From positions 62,001-126,000 of the forward strand of contig NZ_JADIJC010000006.1 of NCBI RefSeq assembly GCF_015278255.1: a stretch of DNA of 64,000 bases, written 5' to 3'. Positions within the stretch are counted from its first letter, which is position 1, and each line of letters begins with the position of its first letter. This document shows positions 30,705 to 42,541 of this stretch, one piece after another. A model generated the notes under the pieces. That model saw only the letters and a program-made list of their open reading frames with translations, had not been told where the DNA came from and searched no databases. This stretch comes from Microbacterium hibisci (GTDB taxonomy: Bacteria > Actinomycetota > Actinomycetes > Actinomycetales > Microbacteriaceae). The translations under genes were made by a program, and so were the position numbers.

Positions 30705-30791
30705 GTGGTGGGGGATGACACCGAGGAGGATCGCACGATCGTGGAGGCAACTCAGCAGCGTCTCGTCGGCCGGATTCCGGAGGGCTGCTGA
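30705..30791 (+). CDS. Short leader ORF, 28 aa
   Basis: GTG at 30705 (or 30708) opens an acidic 28-residue frame ending in TGA that overlaps the ATG of the next gene (TGATG). TACGCT (30694-30699) lies five bases before it, matching the leaderless pattern elsewhere in the window. It may be a translated leader peptide that couples translation to the operon. There is no homology evidence, and it may only be leader sequence. Confidence 0.4.
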   Translation: MVGDDTEEDRTIVEATQQRLVGRIPEGC

Positions 30792-31879
30792 TGCGCGGCG
30801 GTGAAGAGCACCACGACAGGTCGCTGATCACGCCGGGGGCCGCTTTCGACGAGGTCTCGGCACGGGCGCTGAAGGACGCCGCCGCGCTCGAGGGGTTCGG
30901 CATCGACATCCCGTCCACCATCGACTGGTGCGTGCGAGTCGGTCGCGGTGCGCCGCTGGCAGGTGCCGGCGACACCGCGGCGCTGTGGGATCTGCTGGCC
31001 GCGACCGCGTGCCGCGACGTCGCGGCAGCCCGCGTGCTCGAGCCTCACCTCGATGCGCTGGGCATCCTCCGGCAGGCGGGCACCGACCTCGGGGCGGGCA
31101 GCGATCCCTGGCGGGCGGCCGACATCGGCGCCGACGCGGACTCGTCGTGGGGCGTCTTCGCTGCAGAGGGTCCGGGCGTACGCGTCGACGCGCACGAGAC
31201 CCCGGCCGGCTGGACGCTGAGCGGCACGAAGCCGTGGTGCTCGCTCGCCACCCACCTGTCTCACGCCCTCGTGACGGCGTTCGTGGGTGACCAGCGGCGG
31301 CTGTTCGCCGTCGCACTGCGCGGACCGGGTGTGCGCCCACACGACGGGCCCTGGGTGGCGCGCGGCCTGCCCGACATCGTCAGCGCTCCCGTCGACTTCG
31401 ATGGCGCCCCAGCGGTCCCCATCGGCGACATCGGCTGGTATCTCACCCGCCCGGGCTTCGCATGGGGGGCGATGTCGGTCGCCGCGTGCTGGTGGGGCGG
31501 CGCCCGCGGGATCCGCGAAGCCCTGCGCGGCGCGGCCTCGTCGGAGCGCGCCGATCAGGTCGCGCTGGTGCATCTCGGACGGACGGATGCTGCGCTCTGG
31601 GCTGCGCGTGCGGCGCTGCGCGAGGCAGCCGAGCTCGTGGACGACGGGGCTCGCATAGATCAGAAGCTGCTGGCCGAGCGCGTGCGCGGCGCGGTGGTGC
31701 ATGCGGCCGGCACGGCGCTCGCCGAGGCCGACGCGGCGCTCGGCCCCGGCCCGCTCGTGTCGGACCCGGCCTACGCGCGCCGGGTCGCCGACCTGCACCT
31801 GTACCTCCGGCAGCATCACGGCCTGCGCGACGCCGCCCGACTCGGGCGGCTCGTCGTCGAGAGCGGGGCGGACTGCTGA
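30791..31879 (+). CDS. Acyl-CoA dehydrogenase-like flavoprotein
   Basis: A 362-aa protein with the acyl-CoA dehydrogenase layout: helical N-terminus, a beta domain near residues 115-215 (WGVFAAEGPGVRVDAHETPAGWTLSGTKPWCS, the loop that packs on FAD) and a helical C-terminus. The Trp-Thr-Leu-Ser-Gly-Thr-Lys-Pro-Trp stretch matches the conserved GxKxxxS region. I cannot place the catalytic Glu. It opens a three-gene operon with the deacetylase/methyltransferase and GT2 genes, so it may act on a carrier- or CoA-linked substrate of that pathway, or on a non-CoA amine or sugar. Confidence 0.75.
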   Translation: MRGGEEHHDRSLITPGAAFDEVSARALKDAAALEGFGIDIPSTIDWCVRVGRGAPLAGAGDTAALWDLLAATACRDVAAARVLEPHLDALGILRQAGTDLGAGSDPWRAADIGADADSSWGVFAAEGPGVRVDAHETPAGWTLSGTKPWCSLATHLSHALVTAFVGDQRRLFAVALRGPGVRPHDGPWVARGLPDIVSAPVDFDGAPAVPIGDIGWYLTRPGFAWGAMSVAACWWGGARGIREALRGAASSERADQVALVHLGRTDAALWAARAALREAAELVDDGARIDQKLLAERVRGAVVHAAGTALAEADAALGPGPLVSDPAYARRVADLHLYLRQHHGLRDAARLGRLVVESGADC

Positions 31880-33258
31880 TGGCCGGGTTCAGCCACCTCG
31901 ACGCCGGAACGCCCGAGACGCTCTGGCGCGATGAACTCGCACGGCGCGAGCTCGACCCCCTCGACCCGCAGTTCGACCTTCTCGTCGTGGTGGCGGCCCA
32001 CCCCGACGACGAGACCCTCGGCGCCGCCGGGCTGATGCGCCGGGCGTCGGAGACGGGTGCGCGCGTCGTCGTGATCATCGCGACCGACGGCGAGGCATCC
32101 CACCCCCGCTCGGTGACCCACGATCGGGCGACGCTCGCGCGACGGCGGCGGGACGAGGTGCGCGACGCCGTCGAAGTGCTCGCGCCCGACGCCGAGCTCC
32201 GATTCCTCGGCCTTCCTGACGGCGGTCTCGACCGCAACCGCGGCGAGCTGCGCGAGCGCCTTGGCGCGACCTTCGACCAGCACCGCTGGGTCGAGTCGTC
32301 CCGGGTGCTGGTCGCCGTTCCGTGGTCGGGCGATCGGCACCGCGATCACCGCGTCGCCGCGGAGGTGGCGAGCACGATCGCCGGTCAACGCCGGCTCGCT
32401 CTGCTGGAGTACCCGGTGTGGGGGTGGCACTGGGGCACGCCCGACGACCTGCCCTGGGAGCGGATGGTCGCGCTCGAGCTCACCGCCGAGGAGCGTCGCG
32501 CGAAGCGCGACGCCGTCGCCCGCCACCTCACCCAGATCGCCCCCCTCTCCGACCGGCCGGGCGACGAGGCGCTGCTGCATGCGGGCATGCAGGAGCACTT
32601 CGACCGCGAGGTCGAGGTCTTCGTCGCTCCTGCGCCGGACGACGACCCGGAGCAGACTCTCGACGCACGGTGGTTCGACGAGTTCTACCGTCGCAACGGC
32701 GACGACCCGTGGGGCTTCGAGACGCGCTGGTACGAGGAGCGCAAGCGGGCGCTGCTGATGGCGGCGCTGCCGTCGCGTGAGCTGGGGAGCGTGTTCGAGA
32801 TCGGCTGCGCGACGGGACTGCTCACGGCGCAGCTCGCGGATCGGGCGCAGAACGTGATGGCGATGGATGCCGCGACCCCGGCGGCGACGGCGGCCCGCTC
32901 CCGTCTCGAGGGACGGCGCGACGTGGCTGTACGGCAGGGCAGCGTTCCGGGGGACTGGCCGGACGGGCGATTCGACACCATCGTCCTGTCGGAAGTCGGA
33001 TACTACCTGTCGCCGGACGATCTGCAGCGCACCTGCGCCCTGATCGAGGCCTCCCTCTCCGATGACGGATGCCTCGTCGCCTGCCACTGGCGGCACCCCG
33101 TGGCTGAGCACCCGCAGACGGGCGATGCGGTGCACGAGGCCCTCCGCGGCGTCGCCGCGTGGGAGACGATCAGCCTGCACACCGAGAAGGACTTCGTGCT
33201 CGAGGTCTTCGCCCGCCGCGGTGTGCAGTCGGTGGCGGAGCGAGAGGGGCTGGTGTGA
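31879..33258 (+). CDS. Bifunctional PIG-L deacetylase / NodS-like SAM methyltransferase
   Basis: A 459-aa fusion. Residues about 30-250 are a PIG-L/LmbE zinc deacetylase: AAHPDDETLGAAG (His41, Asp43, Asp44) and HRDH at 154-157 supply the metal site. Residues about 262-459 resemble NodS-type methyltransferases: FYRRNGDDPWGFETRWYEERKR, SAM motif FEIGCATGLL (306-315), IVLSEVGYYLSPDDL. PIG-L proteins remove acetyl from GlcNAc-type sugars and NodS methylates the freed amine of Nod-factor glucosamine, so the fusion suggests sequential N-deacetylation and N-methylation. The start ATG overlaps the previous stop by one base; the end overlaps the GT2 start by four. Confidence 0.87.
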   Translation: MAGFSHLDAGTPETLWRDELARRELDPLDPQFDLLVVVAAHPDDETLGAAGLMRRASETGARVVVIIATDGEASHPRSVTHDRATLARRRRDEVRDAVEVLAPDAELRFLGLPDGGLDRNRGELRERLGATFDQHRWVESSRVLVAVPWSGDRHRDHRVAAEVASTIAGQRRLALLEYPVWGWHWGTPDDLPWERMVALELTAEERRAKRDAVARHLTQIAPLSDRPGDEALLHAGMQEHFDREVEVFVAPAPDDDPEQTLDARWFDEFYRRNGDDPWGFETRWYEERKRALLMAALPSRELGSVFEIGCATGLLTAQLADRAQNVMAMDAATPAATAARSRLEGRRDVAVRQGSVPGDWPDGRFDTIVLSEVGYYLSPDDLQRTCALIEASLSDDGCLVACHWRHPVAEHPQTGDAVHEALRGVAAWETISLHTEKDFVLEVFARRGVQSVAEREGLV

Positions 33259-34028
33259 GCCCCGCGGAGGCTGAGGCCATCGTCGTCGTCGTGCCGGTCC
33301 GCGACGAGCAGCTCCTGCTCGAGAAGTGCCTGTCGGCGCTCGCGGCAGCGGTGACGGCCGCCTCGAACGCCGGCATCCGCACCGAGGTGCGCGTCGTGCT
33401 CGACAGGTGCACCGACGCGTCCGGGCAGATCGCCGCGGCCTTCCCCTTCCCCACACTCACCTCCGACGCGGGGCGGGTCGGCGTCGCGCGGGCGATCGGC
33501 GTCTCGGATGCGCTGCAGGCGCTGGCCGGGATCCCGATCGACCGCGTCTGGATCGCGAACACGGATGCCGATTCCCGCGTGCCGACCGGATGGCTCACGC
33601 ACTTCCGCACGATCTCGCGGATCGCGGACGTCTGCGTGGGCACCGTGCGCCCCGACTTCGACGACCTCTCCCCGGCGCAGAGAGCGCTCTGGCTGCGCAC
33701 CCACCCCTTCGGCGAGCCCAATGGGCACGTGCACGGCGCCAACCTCGGGGTGAGCGCTCGCGCGTATCTCGCCGCCGGCGGCTTCGCGGCGCTCGGTGAA
33801 CACGAAGACGTCGATCTCGTCGCCCGCTGCCGCAACCACGGCGCCGTGGTGGTGGCGAGCGACGTGGCCGAGGTGCTCACGTCCGGCCGCCGTACCGGAC
33901 GCACTCCCGGCGGCTATGCGCGCTACCTGCGTGAGCAGGCGGCGGATCTCGCGCTCCACGCCTCGCCCGGCGGGGTACTGACCGCGCTCGACGACAGCCG
34001 ACCGTGCGGTGCCCCCGCCGCGTCGTGA
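33255..34028 (+). CDS. Glycosyltransferase family 2
   Basis: A 257-aa GT-A fold protein. [21 protein letters not shown] opens the nucleotide-sugar domain, NTDADSRVP carries the DxD metal motif, and [12 protein letters not shown] the late ED motif. It has no membrane segment. GTG at 33255 overlaps the previous stop (GTGA). It probably builds the glycoconjugate that the deacetylase/methyltransferase modifies; this is inference from the tight operon. Confidence 0.82.
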
Positions 34029-36063: not shown

Positions 36064-36996
36064 TCAGGGGAGCTCCCGGCGACGCTTCCGCTCCTCCACG
36101 AGGGCATCCCGGAGCGCCCAGACATCGGCGACGGGTCCGATGTGCTCCAGCTTTTCGGGGTTCACGATGGTGCGGACGGTCTGGATCCGCCCGTCGAGGA
36201 CGTCGAGGCCGATGATCGCGGCGATCTTCCCGTCAGGTGTGCGGTAGATCGCCCCCGGCTGTCCGTTCACGTCGTGCAGCTCCGCCACCACTCCGGAGTC
36301 CAGCAGCAGCGGAGAGAAGCCGCTGATCATCCGGGCGACGTTGTCGGCCCCCAGGATCGGCCGAGCGAAGGCCGGTCCCTTGCCGCCGCCATCGGCTACG
36401 GCCTGCACGTCGGCGGCGAGGAGCTCCTTGAGCCCGTGGACGTCGCCGCTCCGGAACGCGTCGAAGAAGCGGGCCGCCAGTTCCTCGCGCTCGCGGCGAT
36501 CCGTGTCGAACCTCGGGCGCCCCGCCTCCATGTGCCGACGCGATCGCGCCGCGAGCTGTCGGCACGCCGCCTCCGAGCGGTTCACCGCGGCCGCGATCTC
36601 GTCGTAGTCGAATCCGAACACCTCGCGCAGCACGAACACCGCGCGCTCCAGCGGACTCAGGCGCTCCAGGAGCAGCAGGGCTGCCATCGACACGGAGTCG
36701 GCGAGCTCCGCCGCGCGCTCCGGATCCTCATAGGGGTCGGTCACGAGGGGCTCGGGGAACCACGGCCCGACGTACGACTCGCGTCGCACCCGGGCCGACC
36801 GGAGCACATCGATCGAGATCCGTGTGACCACCGCCGACAGGTACGACTTCACCGACGCCGGTTCGACGTCGGACGCCTCGTATCGCAGCCAGGTGTCCTG
36901 GACCGCATCCTCGGCCTCGCTCACGCTGCCGAGGATCCGGTAGGCGATGGCGAACAGCAGCGGCCGCAACTCCACGAAATCATCAGCGCGCGTCAT
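36064..36996 (-). CDS. ECF41-type sigma factor (SigJ-like)
   Basis: A 310-aa extracytoplasmic-function sigma factor. Sigma2 (about 10-70, RILGSVSEAEDAVQDTWLRY) and sigma4 (about 105-155, RLSPLERAVFVLREVFGFDYDEIA) precede a SnoaL-like C-terminal extension. The ECF41 hallmarks are all present: WFPEP at 79-83, DGGGK near 205 and NPEKL near 283. This group is known to be controlled by its own C-terminal domain rather than an anti-sigma, and usually sits beside a carboxymuconolactone decarboxylase or oxidoreductase. Here the upstream oxidoreductase is a remnant. ATG at 36996 with GGAGG upstream. Confidence 0.92.
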   Translation of the reverse strand: MTRADDFVELRPLLFAIAYRILGSVSEAEDAVQDTWLRYEASDVEPASVKSYLSAVVTRISIDVLRSARVRRESYVGPWFPEPLVTDPYEDPERAAELADSVSMAALLLLERLSPLERAVFVLREVFGFDYDEIAAAVNRSEAACRQLAARSRRHMEAGRPRFDTDRREREELAARFFDAFRSGDVHGLKELLAADVQAVADGGGKGPAFARPILGADNVARMISGFSPLLLDSGVVAELHDVNGQPGAIYRTPDGKIAAIIGLDVLDGRIQTVRTIVNPEKLEHIGPVADVWALRDALVEERKRRRELP

Positions 36997-40550: not shown

Positions 40551-41660
40551 TCAGCCGGCGAGCGCCTCGGAGAGCTTCACGCGAGCGCCCATGCGCAGCA
40601 GCGAGTTCTCGTAGATGCGCGCGCCGATGAGGATGGCCGCGACGCACGTCGCCACCAGGATCGCGAGCGACACGAGCGGCTCCCACCACTGCGCCTCGCC
40701 GAGGAAGATGCGCATCGGCATGCCGACCGGGGCCGAGAACGGCACGTACGACATGATCCCGAGGACCAGCGGATTGTCGTTGAAGAAGATCACCAGGAAG
40801 TACGGCGCCATGATGAGCATCGTGAGCGGCGTCGTGGTGGATCCGACGTCCTCCATGCGCGAGACCATCGACGCGGCTGCCGCGAACAGCGCGGCCAGCA
40901 GGATGAACCCGAAGAGGAAGAACACCGCGAACCAGGCGATCGGGCCCCCGAGCCCCTTCAGCAGCTCCGTCTGATCGGTGACGGTCAGTCCGACGATCGC
41001 GACGGCGGCGAGGATCAGGATCTGACCCATCGCCAGGACCGTGTTGCCGATCACCTTGCCGGCCAGGAGCGACCGAACCGGGATCGCCGAGATCAGCAGC
41101 TCGACGACGCGCGTCTGCTTCTCTTCGACGACGCTCTGCGCGATCGTGCCGCCGAACATGGAGGCGGCGAACAGGAAGACGATGCCGAAGCCCAAGGCGG
41201 CGATGTAGCCGAGCGCCGCGTTGACGTCGTCGGGCTCGAGCAGTTCCACCGGGGGCAGCTGCGACAGCTGCAGCAGGAGCTGCGTGGGCGCGGAGGACTC
41301 CGCGACCACGGCGAAGCCGAGCGGCGAGGAGCTGTCGCCGACGATCGCGGCATCGACGTCGCCGCTGGTGACCAGGTCTTCGGCCGCGGCGCGGTCGGGC
41401 ACATCGGTGATCTCGAGACCCTCGACGCCCTCGACGTACTGCGAGGCGTCGGTCGTGACCGCGACCGGCGTGCCGCTCGTGCTGGACGCCTGGAAGCCGG
41501 CCCAGATCACCAGCGCGAGGGCGCCGAGGAAGAGGATGGCGGTCGAGATGACGAAGGCCTTGCTTCGCAGCTTCGAGCCGATCTCGCGCTCGGCGACGAG
41601 CCAGATCGCCTGCCCGCCGCTGAGGGCGGAGCCGCCCCGGCGGTTGTCGACGGTGCTCAC
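40551..41660 (-). CDS. ABC-2 type transporter permease (NatB-like)
   Basis: A 369-aa permease. One N-terminal membrane segment (about 38-58), a large external domain (about 60-165) and five or six membrane segments in the C-terminal half form the NatB/YhaP layout; SVVEEKQTRVVELLIS and SRMEDVGSTTTPLTML are typical of the family. GTG at 41660 overlaps the ATPase stop by four bases. It works with the preceding ATPase as an exporter; Na+ efflux is the best-known role, but drug or peptide export is possible. Confidence 0.85.
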   Translation of the reverse strand: MSTVDNRRGGSALSGGQAIWLVAEREIGSKLRSKAFVISTAILFLGALALVIWAGFQASSTSGTPVAVTTDASQYVEGVEGLEITDVPDRAAAEDLVTSGDVDAAIVGDSSSPLGFAVVAESSAPTQLLLQLSQLPPVELLEPDDVNAALGYIAALGFGIVFLFAASMFGGTIAQSVVEEKQTRVVELLISAIPVRSLLAGKVIGNTVLAMGQILILAAVAIVGLTVTDQTELLKGLGGPIAWFAVFFLFGFILLAALFAAAASMVSRMEDVGSTTTPLTMLIMAPYFLVIFFNDNPLVLGIMSYVPFSAPVGMPMRIFLGEAQWWEPLVSLAILVATCVAAILIGARIYENSLLRMGARVKLSEALAG

Positions 41661-42541
41661 TGGATGACCTCCTTGAAGATCTGGGCGAGGGACGGATGCT
41701 GCGGCGCGAAGCTCGCGACATCCCCTTGTGCGACGGCCCGGCGCAGCACGCGCTGGGCCGTCTCGTCGCTGTCGGCGTCGAAGACGGCGTAGCCGCCGTC
41801 GAAGTCGAGCACCTCGACGCCCTCCTCGGAGCGGAGCCATCCGGCGTCACCCGCCGACACGAGCTCGAAGCGACGTGACGAATGCTGCGCGCGCAGCGCC
41901 TCGCGGGCGCCGGCGGCGCGGATCGTGCCGCCCGCGATGATCACGAGGTCGTCGCAGAGGCGCTCGACCACGTCGAGCTGGTGCGACGAGAACAGCACGG
42001 CGGTGCCGTCGGCGGCGCGCTGCTGCAGCACGCCCGCCACGACGTCGACCGCGAGCGGGTCGAGGCCCGAGAACGGCTCGTCGAGGATGAGCACCTGCGG
42101 GTCGTGCACGAGCGCGGCGGCGATCTGGGCGCGCTGCTGGTTGCCGAGTGAGAGCGTCTCGACGTTGTCGTTCAGGCGCTCCCCGAGTCCGAGCTGCTCG
42201 AGGAGCGCGCGGGCGCGGGTCGCGGCATCCGTCTTCGAGAACCCATGCAGGCGCGCGAGGTACACGATGTGCTCGAGCACCTTCATCTTCGGGTACAGGC
42301 CGCGCTCCTCGGGCATGTAGCCGAAGCGGCGGCGATCGGCTGCCGTCACCTCGGCGCCGTCGAGCGACACCGTGCCGCCGTCCGCGGCGAGCACGCCGAG
42401 CACGATCCGCATCGTGGTGGTCTTGCCCGCGCCGTTGCCGCCCACGAACCCGGTGAGCCGGCCGGGCCGCACGTCGAACGACACGTCGTCGAGCACACGG
42501 CGCCCCCCGTAGCTCGTCTCGATACCGCGAAGCTGCAGCAT
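41657..42541 (-). CDS. ABC transporter ATP-binding protein (NatA-like)
   Basis: A 294-aa ATPase with Walker A GGNGAGKTTT, signature LSLGNQQRAQIA (LSGGQ variant with N for the second G), Walker B VLILDEP and the H-loop SSHQLD. The C-terminal roughly 80 residues are the extension seen in NatA/YhaQ-type subunits. ATG at 42541 with GGAGACAGGG upstream; the stop overlaps the permease GTG. Confidence 0.9.
   Translation of the reverse strand: MLQLRGIETSYGGRRVLDDVSFDVRPGRLTGFVGGNGAGKTTTMRIVLGVLAADGGTVSLDGAEVTAADRRRFGYMPEERGLYPKMKVLEHIVYLARLHGFSKTDAATRARALLEQLGLGERLNDNVETLSLGNQQRAQIAAALVHDPQVLILDEPFSGLDPLAVDVVAGVLQQRAADGTAVLFSSHQLDVVERLCDDLVIIAGGTIRAAGAREALRAQHSSRRFELVSAGDAGWLRSEEGVEVLDFDGGYAVFDADSDETAQRVLRRAVAQGDVASFAPQHPSLAQIFKEVIQ

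Follow-up and report, generated by a model that had tools for sequence, protein, structure and literature searches.

An operon encoding a flavoprotein, a PIG-L/NodS-type fusion and a glycosyltransferase in Microbacterium hibisci: a conserved gene set with a predicted N-methylated amino-sugar product

Genes and domains of the operon

The current work concerns a window of Microbacterium hibisci DNA, that is, a stretch of 64,000 nucleotides of contig NZ_JADIJC010000006.1 (assembly GCF_015278255.1), in which the positions below are numbered. Three open reading frames (ORFs) on the plus strand form one operon, encoding a flavoprotein that resembles acyl-CoA dehydrogenases (ACADs), a fusion of a PIG-L type de-N-acetylase with a NodS-type methyltransferase (MT), and a family 2 glycosyltransferase (GT2). 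These four enzymes recur together in many bacteria, and the set is called the module here. Its genes and domains in the window are the following:

30791-31879, plus strand: ACAD-fold flavoprotein of 362 amino acids (aa); an ORF with an AlphaFold2 model, DszC as top profile match, scores below the Pfam ACAD cut-offs and no EGT loop
31879-33258, plus strand: PIG-L/NodS-type fusion of 459 aa; an ORF
31879-32646, plus strand: PIG-L type de-N-acetylase domain (fusion residues 1-256); PF02585, kept active-site residues, solved relatives
32647-33258, plus strand: NodS-family S-adenosylmethionine (SAM) methyltransferase domain (fusion residues 257-459); PF05401, clade with NodS, PDB matches
33255-34028, plus strand: GT2 of 257 aa without a predicted membrane segment; PF00535, kept motifs, hydropathy

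The gene overlaps of 1 and 4 bases described in the initial annotation are present (TGATG and GTGTGA), as are the motifs AAHPDDE and HRDH, found in the fusion at residues 39-45 and 154-157. The left end given there, 30705, is not the start of the flavoprotein gene; it marks the GTG start of a 28-residue ORF read in a different frame (30705-30791), whose terminal TGATG coincides with the start codon of the flavoprotein. In one relative (L081), the matching stretch before the ACAD start is one base shorter when compared by eye, so that this ORF is probably no conserved leader. The 3.97-Mb genome holds a single copy of the set, and the closest named relative of the flavoprotein among the matches listed belongs to Microbacterium ureisolvens (84%). 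None of the displayed NCBIfam matches of the three proteins makes its cut-off, and hydropathy shows no membrane-like hydrophobic segment in any of them.

The de-N-acetylase and methyltransferase domains

The first half of the fusion matches PF02585 with 91.4 bits (cut-off 28.2; E-value 8.3e-26), in agreement with its initial assignment to PIG-L. Residues H41, D43, D44, D152, H154, D156 and H157 are conserved in no fewer than 95% of 121 aligned rows, and the solved relatives are TT1542 and diacetylchitobiose deacetylases.

The biosynthesis of mycothiol and bacillithiol follows a logic of glycosyltransferase plus PIG-L deacetylase, and the module likewise joins these two activities. A low-molecular-weight thiol akin to these compounds might therefore be considered as the product; MshB, BshB and Mca, themselves PIG-L enzymes, match weakly, and in Legionella lytica a YbdK-family carboxylate-amine ligase lies about 6.7 kb from the module. 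However, the equivalog models of MshB, Mca, BshB1 and BshB2 score only 26, 32.8, 39.9 and 33.8 bits, far under their cut-offs of 224.35, 277.15, 182.5 and 195.25. Unlike the thiol pathways, the module adds a methyltransferase and a flavoprotein, and its conserved set has no cysteine ligase. Legionella apart, the annotated plasmid stretches, whose gene tables are incomplete, list no ligase of this kind. A thiol product is considered highly improbable.

In rhizobia, NodB deacetylates a glucosamine residue and NodS methylates the freed amine. The second half of the fusion matches the NodS family PF05401 with 53.8 bits (cut-off 24; E-value 3e-14), and no other methyltransferase family surpasses it, the rest of the eight methyltransferase-type Pfam matches reaching at most 41.4 bits. 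The likeness to NodS seen initially is thereby borne out. The catalytic motifs are conserved in 95% or more of 131 rows. The equivalog model for NodS in the strict sense (NF041650) is missed, with 52.4 bits against a cut-off of 300. In a tree with 9 other methyltransferases, 33 module rows and 3 NodS sequences form a 36-row clade with support 98/98, in an analysis whose bootstrap had not settled and whose outgroup branches are long; the tree does not separate NodS nested inside the module methyltransferases from NodS beside them (approximately unbiased test, p-AU 0.287). Against the PDB, with a query that began one codon before the domain border, the best match is an unnamed methyltransferase (4isc, 1.3e-37); then come NodS (3ofj, 8.3e-8), a second unnamed enzyme and the gentamicin N-methyltransferases (2.7e-5). 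Among solved proteins with a named function, NodS is thus closest and the gentamicin N-methyltransferases come next. Judged by its sequence, this half belongs to the NodS family, yet is not NodS itself. One partial PADLOC match to mad2 (51.5 bits) was ascribed to the common methyltransferase fold, and this identity was rejected. The structural model of the fusion (predicted template-modelling score 0.67) has a low-confidence linker at residues 254-257 and yields no orientation of the two domains.

The glycosyltransferase reaches 24.2 bits with PF00535, with a gathering cut-off of 23.3. Its residues T103, D104 and D106 (DxD) and E184 and D185 (ED) are conserved in 95% or more of 130 rows, and its 19-residue hydropathy maximum is 1.3. 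Comparison with solved structures gave no sequence relative at E up to 0.2.

The flavoprotein

The flavoprotein model is of the ACAD fold (predicted local distance difference test score, 87.6), and fold comparison (VIA) superposes 332 residues on 4iv6 with Z 32.8 and a root-mean-square deviation of 2.6. Both Pfam ACAD cut-offs are missed (PF02770, 20.8 of 33.3 bits; PF00441, 19.5 of 22.4 bits). Some relatives barely pass one of them, as in L168 (PF02770, 33.7 against 33.3) and L162. The latter, on a Deinococcus radiophilus plasmid (3803-6049), encodes an ACAD-like protein of 749 aa, in which about 400 residues before the ACAD part have no Pfam match at the threshold used.

In searches with the family profile, DszC is the top match (7.9e-16) and ACADs come next; DnmZ (1.6e-8) and the nitrososynthase 3mxl (2e-7) stand lower, with several ACADs outranking DnmZ. 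The ACAD-fold monooxygenases, namely DszC and the amino-sugar N-oxygenases KijD3 and DnmZ, thus resemble the flavoprotein in fold and profile matches, and KijD3 appears in the Foldseek list. The identity is low (16-19%), however, and DszC ties with plain ACADs by fold, which does not tell a dehydrogenase from an oxygenase. The EGT loop carries the catalytic glutamate of acyl-CoA dehydrogenases. EGT after the conserved Asp occurs in 0 of 131 family rows and a Glu at D+8 in 3, whereas a genuine ACAD aligned alongside has the loop. Ser151, kept in 129 of the 131 rows, pairs in the profile alignment with S163 of DszC, which we take to be functionally important; a literature search gave no confirmation of this.

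Since DszC is the top profile match and the EGT loop is absent, the flavoprotein is probably a DszC-like oxygenase or oxidase rather than a dehydrogenase. The earlier label "ACAD-like" holds for the fold and probably not for the dehydrogenase class. It is improbable that a true acyl-CoA dehydrogenase acts here in modifying a lipid, with a fatty-acyl glycoside carrying a methylated amine as the outcome. Such a role would fit the ACAD fold and the fatty acid desaturase genes found downstream of the operon in the window and beside the module in L262; it is opposed by the missing EGT loop, the scores under the Pfam cut-offs and the lack of membrane-like segments in all three proteins.

Conservation of the four-enzyme set

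The initial proposal would have been refuted had the genes not stayed together in other genomes. Among 507 confirmed relatives ranked by flavoprotein similarity, the best 80 named loci, a sample biased to near kin, all contain the four domains together, and the PIG-L-methyltransferase fusion is present in 76. In a survey of the class, the flavoprotein was found in 53 of 296 genomes (29 of 114 genera), and 40 of these 53 have the four parts within one fetched stretch; the grouping goes beyond a chance arrangement. The remaining class genomes comprise 8 without a linked PIG-L, 2 with flavoprotein and PIG-L only, and 3 with the flavoprotein alone. Four of the 8 have a PIG-L of the module type at another place in the genome, with 54-55% identity to the one in L251.

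A plasmid search matched 101 records; the fusion was the query, and the matches are accordingly biased to PIG-L plus methyltransferase. Of the first 17 loci, 16 carry the four parts within the stretch, in Acinetobacter, Legionella, Comamonas, Pandoraea, Cupriavidus, Bradyrhizobium, Sulfitobacter, Paracoccus, Sphingomonas, Komagataeibacter, Deinococcus, Kitasatospora and Nostoc. The PIG-L match of Cupriavidus (L171) is weak (94 bits), lies about 3 kb away on the other strand and may not belong to the module. The seventeenth locus, from Rubrobacter, has no PIG-L. Plasmids of Novosphingobium, Sphingobium and Methylobacterium contain the four parts too. The set, first described in a free-living actinobacterium, is not specific to this setting, being present on plasmids of Proteobacteria, Deinococcus and Nostoc. 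One scan of viral_contigs found no relative.

The order of the genes varies widely between loci. On a Methylobacterium aquaticum plasmid (L184, 3560-5968), one ORF fuses GT2 to the ACAD-like domain, so that two different pairwise fusions, PIG-L-NodS and GT2-ACAD, are known in the module. Because the set stays together despite changing order and fusions, it is probably a functional unit.

Several individual loci show further features. In L181 and L182 (Novosphingobium and Sphingobium plasmids), the module also includes a GT4-type gene and other glycosyltransferase genes, which may point to a larger glycan in sphingomonads. Two genes are apparently broken, as each matches in two pieces and is absent from the gene tables: that for the flavoprotein on an Acinetobacter soli plasmid (L161, 6076-6920) and that for the glycosyltransferase on a Pandoraea plasmid (L164, 7214-7853). 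A contig labelled Stenotrophomonas maltophilia P13 (L094) has a Microbacterium-like module with a flavoprotein 59% identical to that of the window, and is possibly a contaminated assembly.

Displacement of the deacetylase

In a survey of the phylum, seven clusters lacked PIG-L; one belongs to G116 and the other six to a single family (f16, which includes Rubrobacter indicoceani, G134). In all seven, the flavoprotein has an ORF with the CE4 motif FDDG directly upstream of it, and the best match to the R. indicoceani CE4 protein in each genome lies at that place, 90-267 bases away from where the flavoprotein matches. The other six CE4 proteins share 47-56% identity with that of R. indicoceani. 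Pfam confirmed CE4 (PF01522) in three of the seven clusters (L177 and L068 are one locus). In L073 (G188:C22), a second such CE4 gene adjoins a module-type methyltransferase, with no flavoprotein or glycosyltransferase match; this is a reduced two-gene version of deacetylase and NodS-type enzyme.

A pyridine-nucleotide FAD oxidoreductase (Pyr_redox_2 in Pfam) is encoded between the methyltransferase and GT2 in Rubrobacter (L177, 8582-9784). Similar ORFs stand between these genes in L068 and L071, and a gap of like size is seen in other f16 loci. A flavin reductase serving the flavoprotein is a possible role.

PIG-L and CE4 have unrelated folds, and both de-N-acetylate sugars of the N-acetylglucosamine (GlcNAc) type. 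The occupation of one slot by two unrelated de-N-acetylase folds supports N-acetylhexosamine de-N-acetylation followed by N-methylation, and is the best single argument for the proposed chemistry.

This evidence also bears on the alternative that the methyltransferase acts on oxygen or on another molecule and that an ordinary surface glycan bearing O-methyl groups is the product. The class I methyltransferase fold is compatible with more than one acceptor atom, and the three further glycosyltransferase genes in the Sphingobium and Novosphingobium clusters would suit a glycan. Nevertheless, the closest named solved relatives, NodS and the gentamicin N-methyltransferase, act on the nitrogen of amino sugars, and the tight linkage of the deacetylase (by fusion in nearly all of the best named loci) together with its displacement by CE4 predicts a free amine. 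An O-methylated glycan is considered rather unlikely.

Association with stress genes

On plasmids, the module is often found near genes for trehalose synthesis and catalase. In Comamonas antarctica, the genes otsA-ACAD-PIGL-MT-GT-otsB stand in a row. Catalase, otsA and otsB accompany the module in Acinetobacter haemolyticus, and otsB and a GH65 enzyme do so in Legionella lytica. A GlgE-type maltosyltransferase, catalase and PA2169 are near the module in Cupriavidus, and treZ and catalase in Paracoccus. Among 18 plasmid records, hand-picked from the match lists for variety, 8 have catalase or otsA/otsB within 10 kb of the module, where 1.3 would be expected (P=2e-6, which is optimistic because the Acinetobacter and Pandoraea records include near relatives). 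Within the same distance, catalase alone is found in 5 (0.75 expected) and ots alone in 4 (0.68 expected). These counts leave out W19 and W20 for catalase, W17 for PF02358 and W18-W20 for PF00982; an annotated catalase about 3 kb off in W19 is thus excluded.

Expression data from Acinetobacter baumannii point in the same direction. According to the accessible text of PMC5660220, a glycosyltransferase, a SAM methyltransferase, LmbE (PIG-L) and an ACAD-related protein (ACICU_02432-02435) form one operon, operon 'e', and the A. baumannii record L167 contains the four domains in this order. Unlike in the window, PIG-L and methyltransferase are separate genes there. In two colistin-dependent mutants, these genes were down 31-62-fold, and otsA/otsB down 12-50-fold; the same text gives expression and no function (PMC5660220). 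In the accessible part of PMC9948694, LmbE, a glycosyltransferase and a SAM methyltransferase are STRING gene-neighborhood partners of the light sensor BlsA, and katE and otsA are raised by light. Of 8 alphaproteobacterial modules, 2 have EcfG-type sites upstream, against 0.23 expected (two of the eight covered only 131-151 bases upstream), which is no more than suggestive.

In the window, a glucose-6-phosphate dehydrogenase gene lies upstream of the operon on the opposite strand, and a cold-shock protein, a fatty acid desaturase and a sigma factor are encoded downstream. A sigma-70-family factor gene (36064-36996) and a DrrA-like ABC exporter pair (40551-42541) are located downstream.

The proposed pathway

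Taken together, the module probably encodes an uncharacterized pathway that is often linked to stress and leads to an N-methylated amino-sugar glycoside. The initial reading of an N-methylated aminosugar gains support from the best match to the NodS family, the conservation of the unit and the CE4 displacement. The order of steps, the substrate, the acceptor, the role of the flavoprotein, and the product with its function we infer as follows. GT2 would transfer an N-acetylhexosamine, probably GlcNAc, onto an acceptor; the PIG-L domain would take off the acetyl group; and the fused NodS-type domain would methylate the freed amine. The ACAD-fold flavoprotein would oxidize, most likely by a DszC- or KijD3-like oxygenation and not by acyl-CoA dehydrogenation. 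Because the module is part of a stress repertoire of trehalose synthesis and catalase in many bacteria, a metabolite or glycoconjugate associated with stress is the probable product.

Several observations weigh against this interpretation. No measured activity was found for any module enzyme. Four of the 53 class genomes have ACAD, methyltransferase and glycosyltransferase with no deacetylase in the scanned flanking ORFs and no close module-type PIG-L elsewhere; two others have flavoprotein and PIG-L only, and three the flavoprotein alone (one at a contig end). The plasmid match in Leisingera (L183) is a PIG-L only, outside any module, and 10 of the 18 plasmid records have no catalase or ots within 10 kb. 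The trehalose link could be co-regulation only. In 116 Actinomycetota survey loci, searched by tblastn with chosen annotated neighbors, there is no consistent stress neighbor (catalase in 4, Ku in 2, TreZ in 1, and OtsB in 1, L065, with GH65 and GlgE). Upstream of 113 actinobacterial operons, no stress promoter is clearly enriched, sigma-factor patterns (0 to 9 sites) being at most about twofold over mono-nucleotide shuffles. The stress association is seen outside Actinobacteria, and a stress role for the operon in the window would be by analogy.

A literature search, with subscription papers mostly outside its coverage, found no paper on the function of the gene set, and PIG-L is not mentioned in the accessible parts of PMC12647597 and PMC12029717.

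Relation to the Nod-factor system

Like the rhizobial NodC-NodB-NodS genes, the module clusters a GT2, a de-N-acetylase and a NodS-family methyltransferase, and in the Rubrobacter family the deacetylase is a CE4 protein as NodB is (33% identity between the Rubrobacter protein and NodB of Sinorhizobium fredii). Unlike the Nod-factor system, the module usually has PIG-L as its deacetylase, contains an additional ACAD-like flavoprotein and has a short GT2 with no membrane segment, and its plasmid neighbors are often stress genes. NodA is annotated in two of three nod loci compared, and not within the stretch of the third; none is annotated in the annotated module stretches, where gene tables are incomplete.

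A more far-reaching scenario is conceivable. In it, a non-symbiotic pathway of NodB/NodC/NodS-like steps would lead to an amino sugar that is N-methylated and, through the flavoprotein, N-oxidized (an N-methylhydroxylamine or nitrone, for which KijD3 and DnmZ offer a precedent), a radical-scavenging stress protectant made with trehalose and catalase, and rhizobial NodS would have been recruited from, or be sister to, this older stress pathway. We regard this scenario as unlikely.

Widespread pathways that are uncharacterized yet allow their product class to be predicted are rare. If the proposed pathway, leading to an N-methylated amino-sugar glycoside, is true, bacteria from Microbacterium to Acinetobacter make an undescribed amino-sugar metabolite, and do so in several groups next to or along with stress genes. 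A function would be given to a gene set named in the records only as separate enzymes, and the swap of CE4 for PIG-L renders the chemistry directly testable. Moreover, the Nod-factor methyltransferase NodS would be tied to a much broader family.

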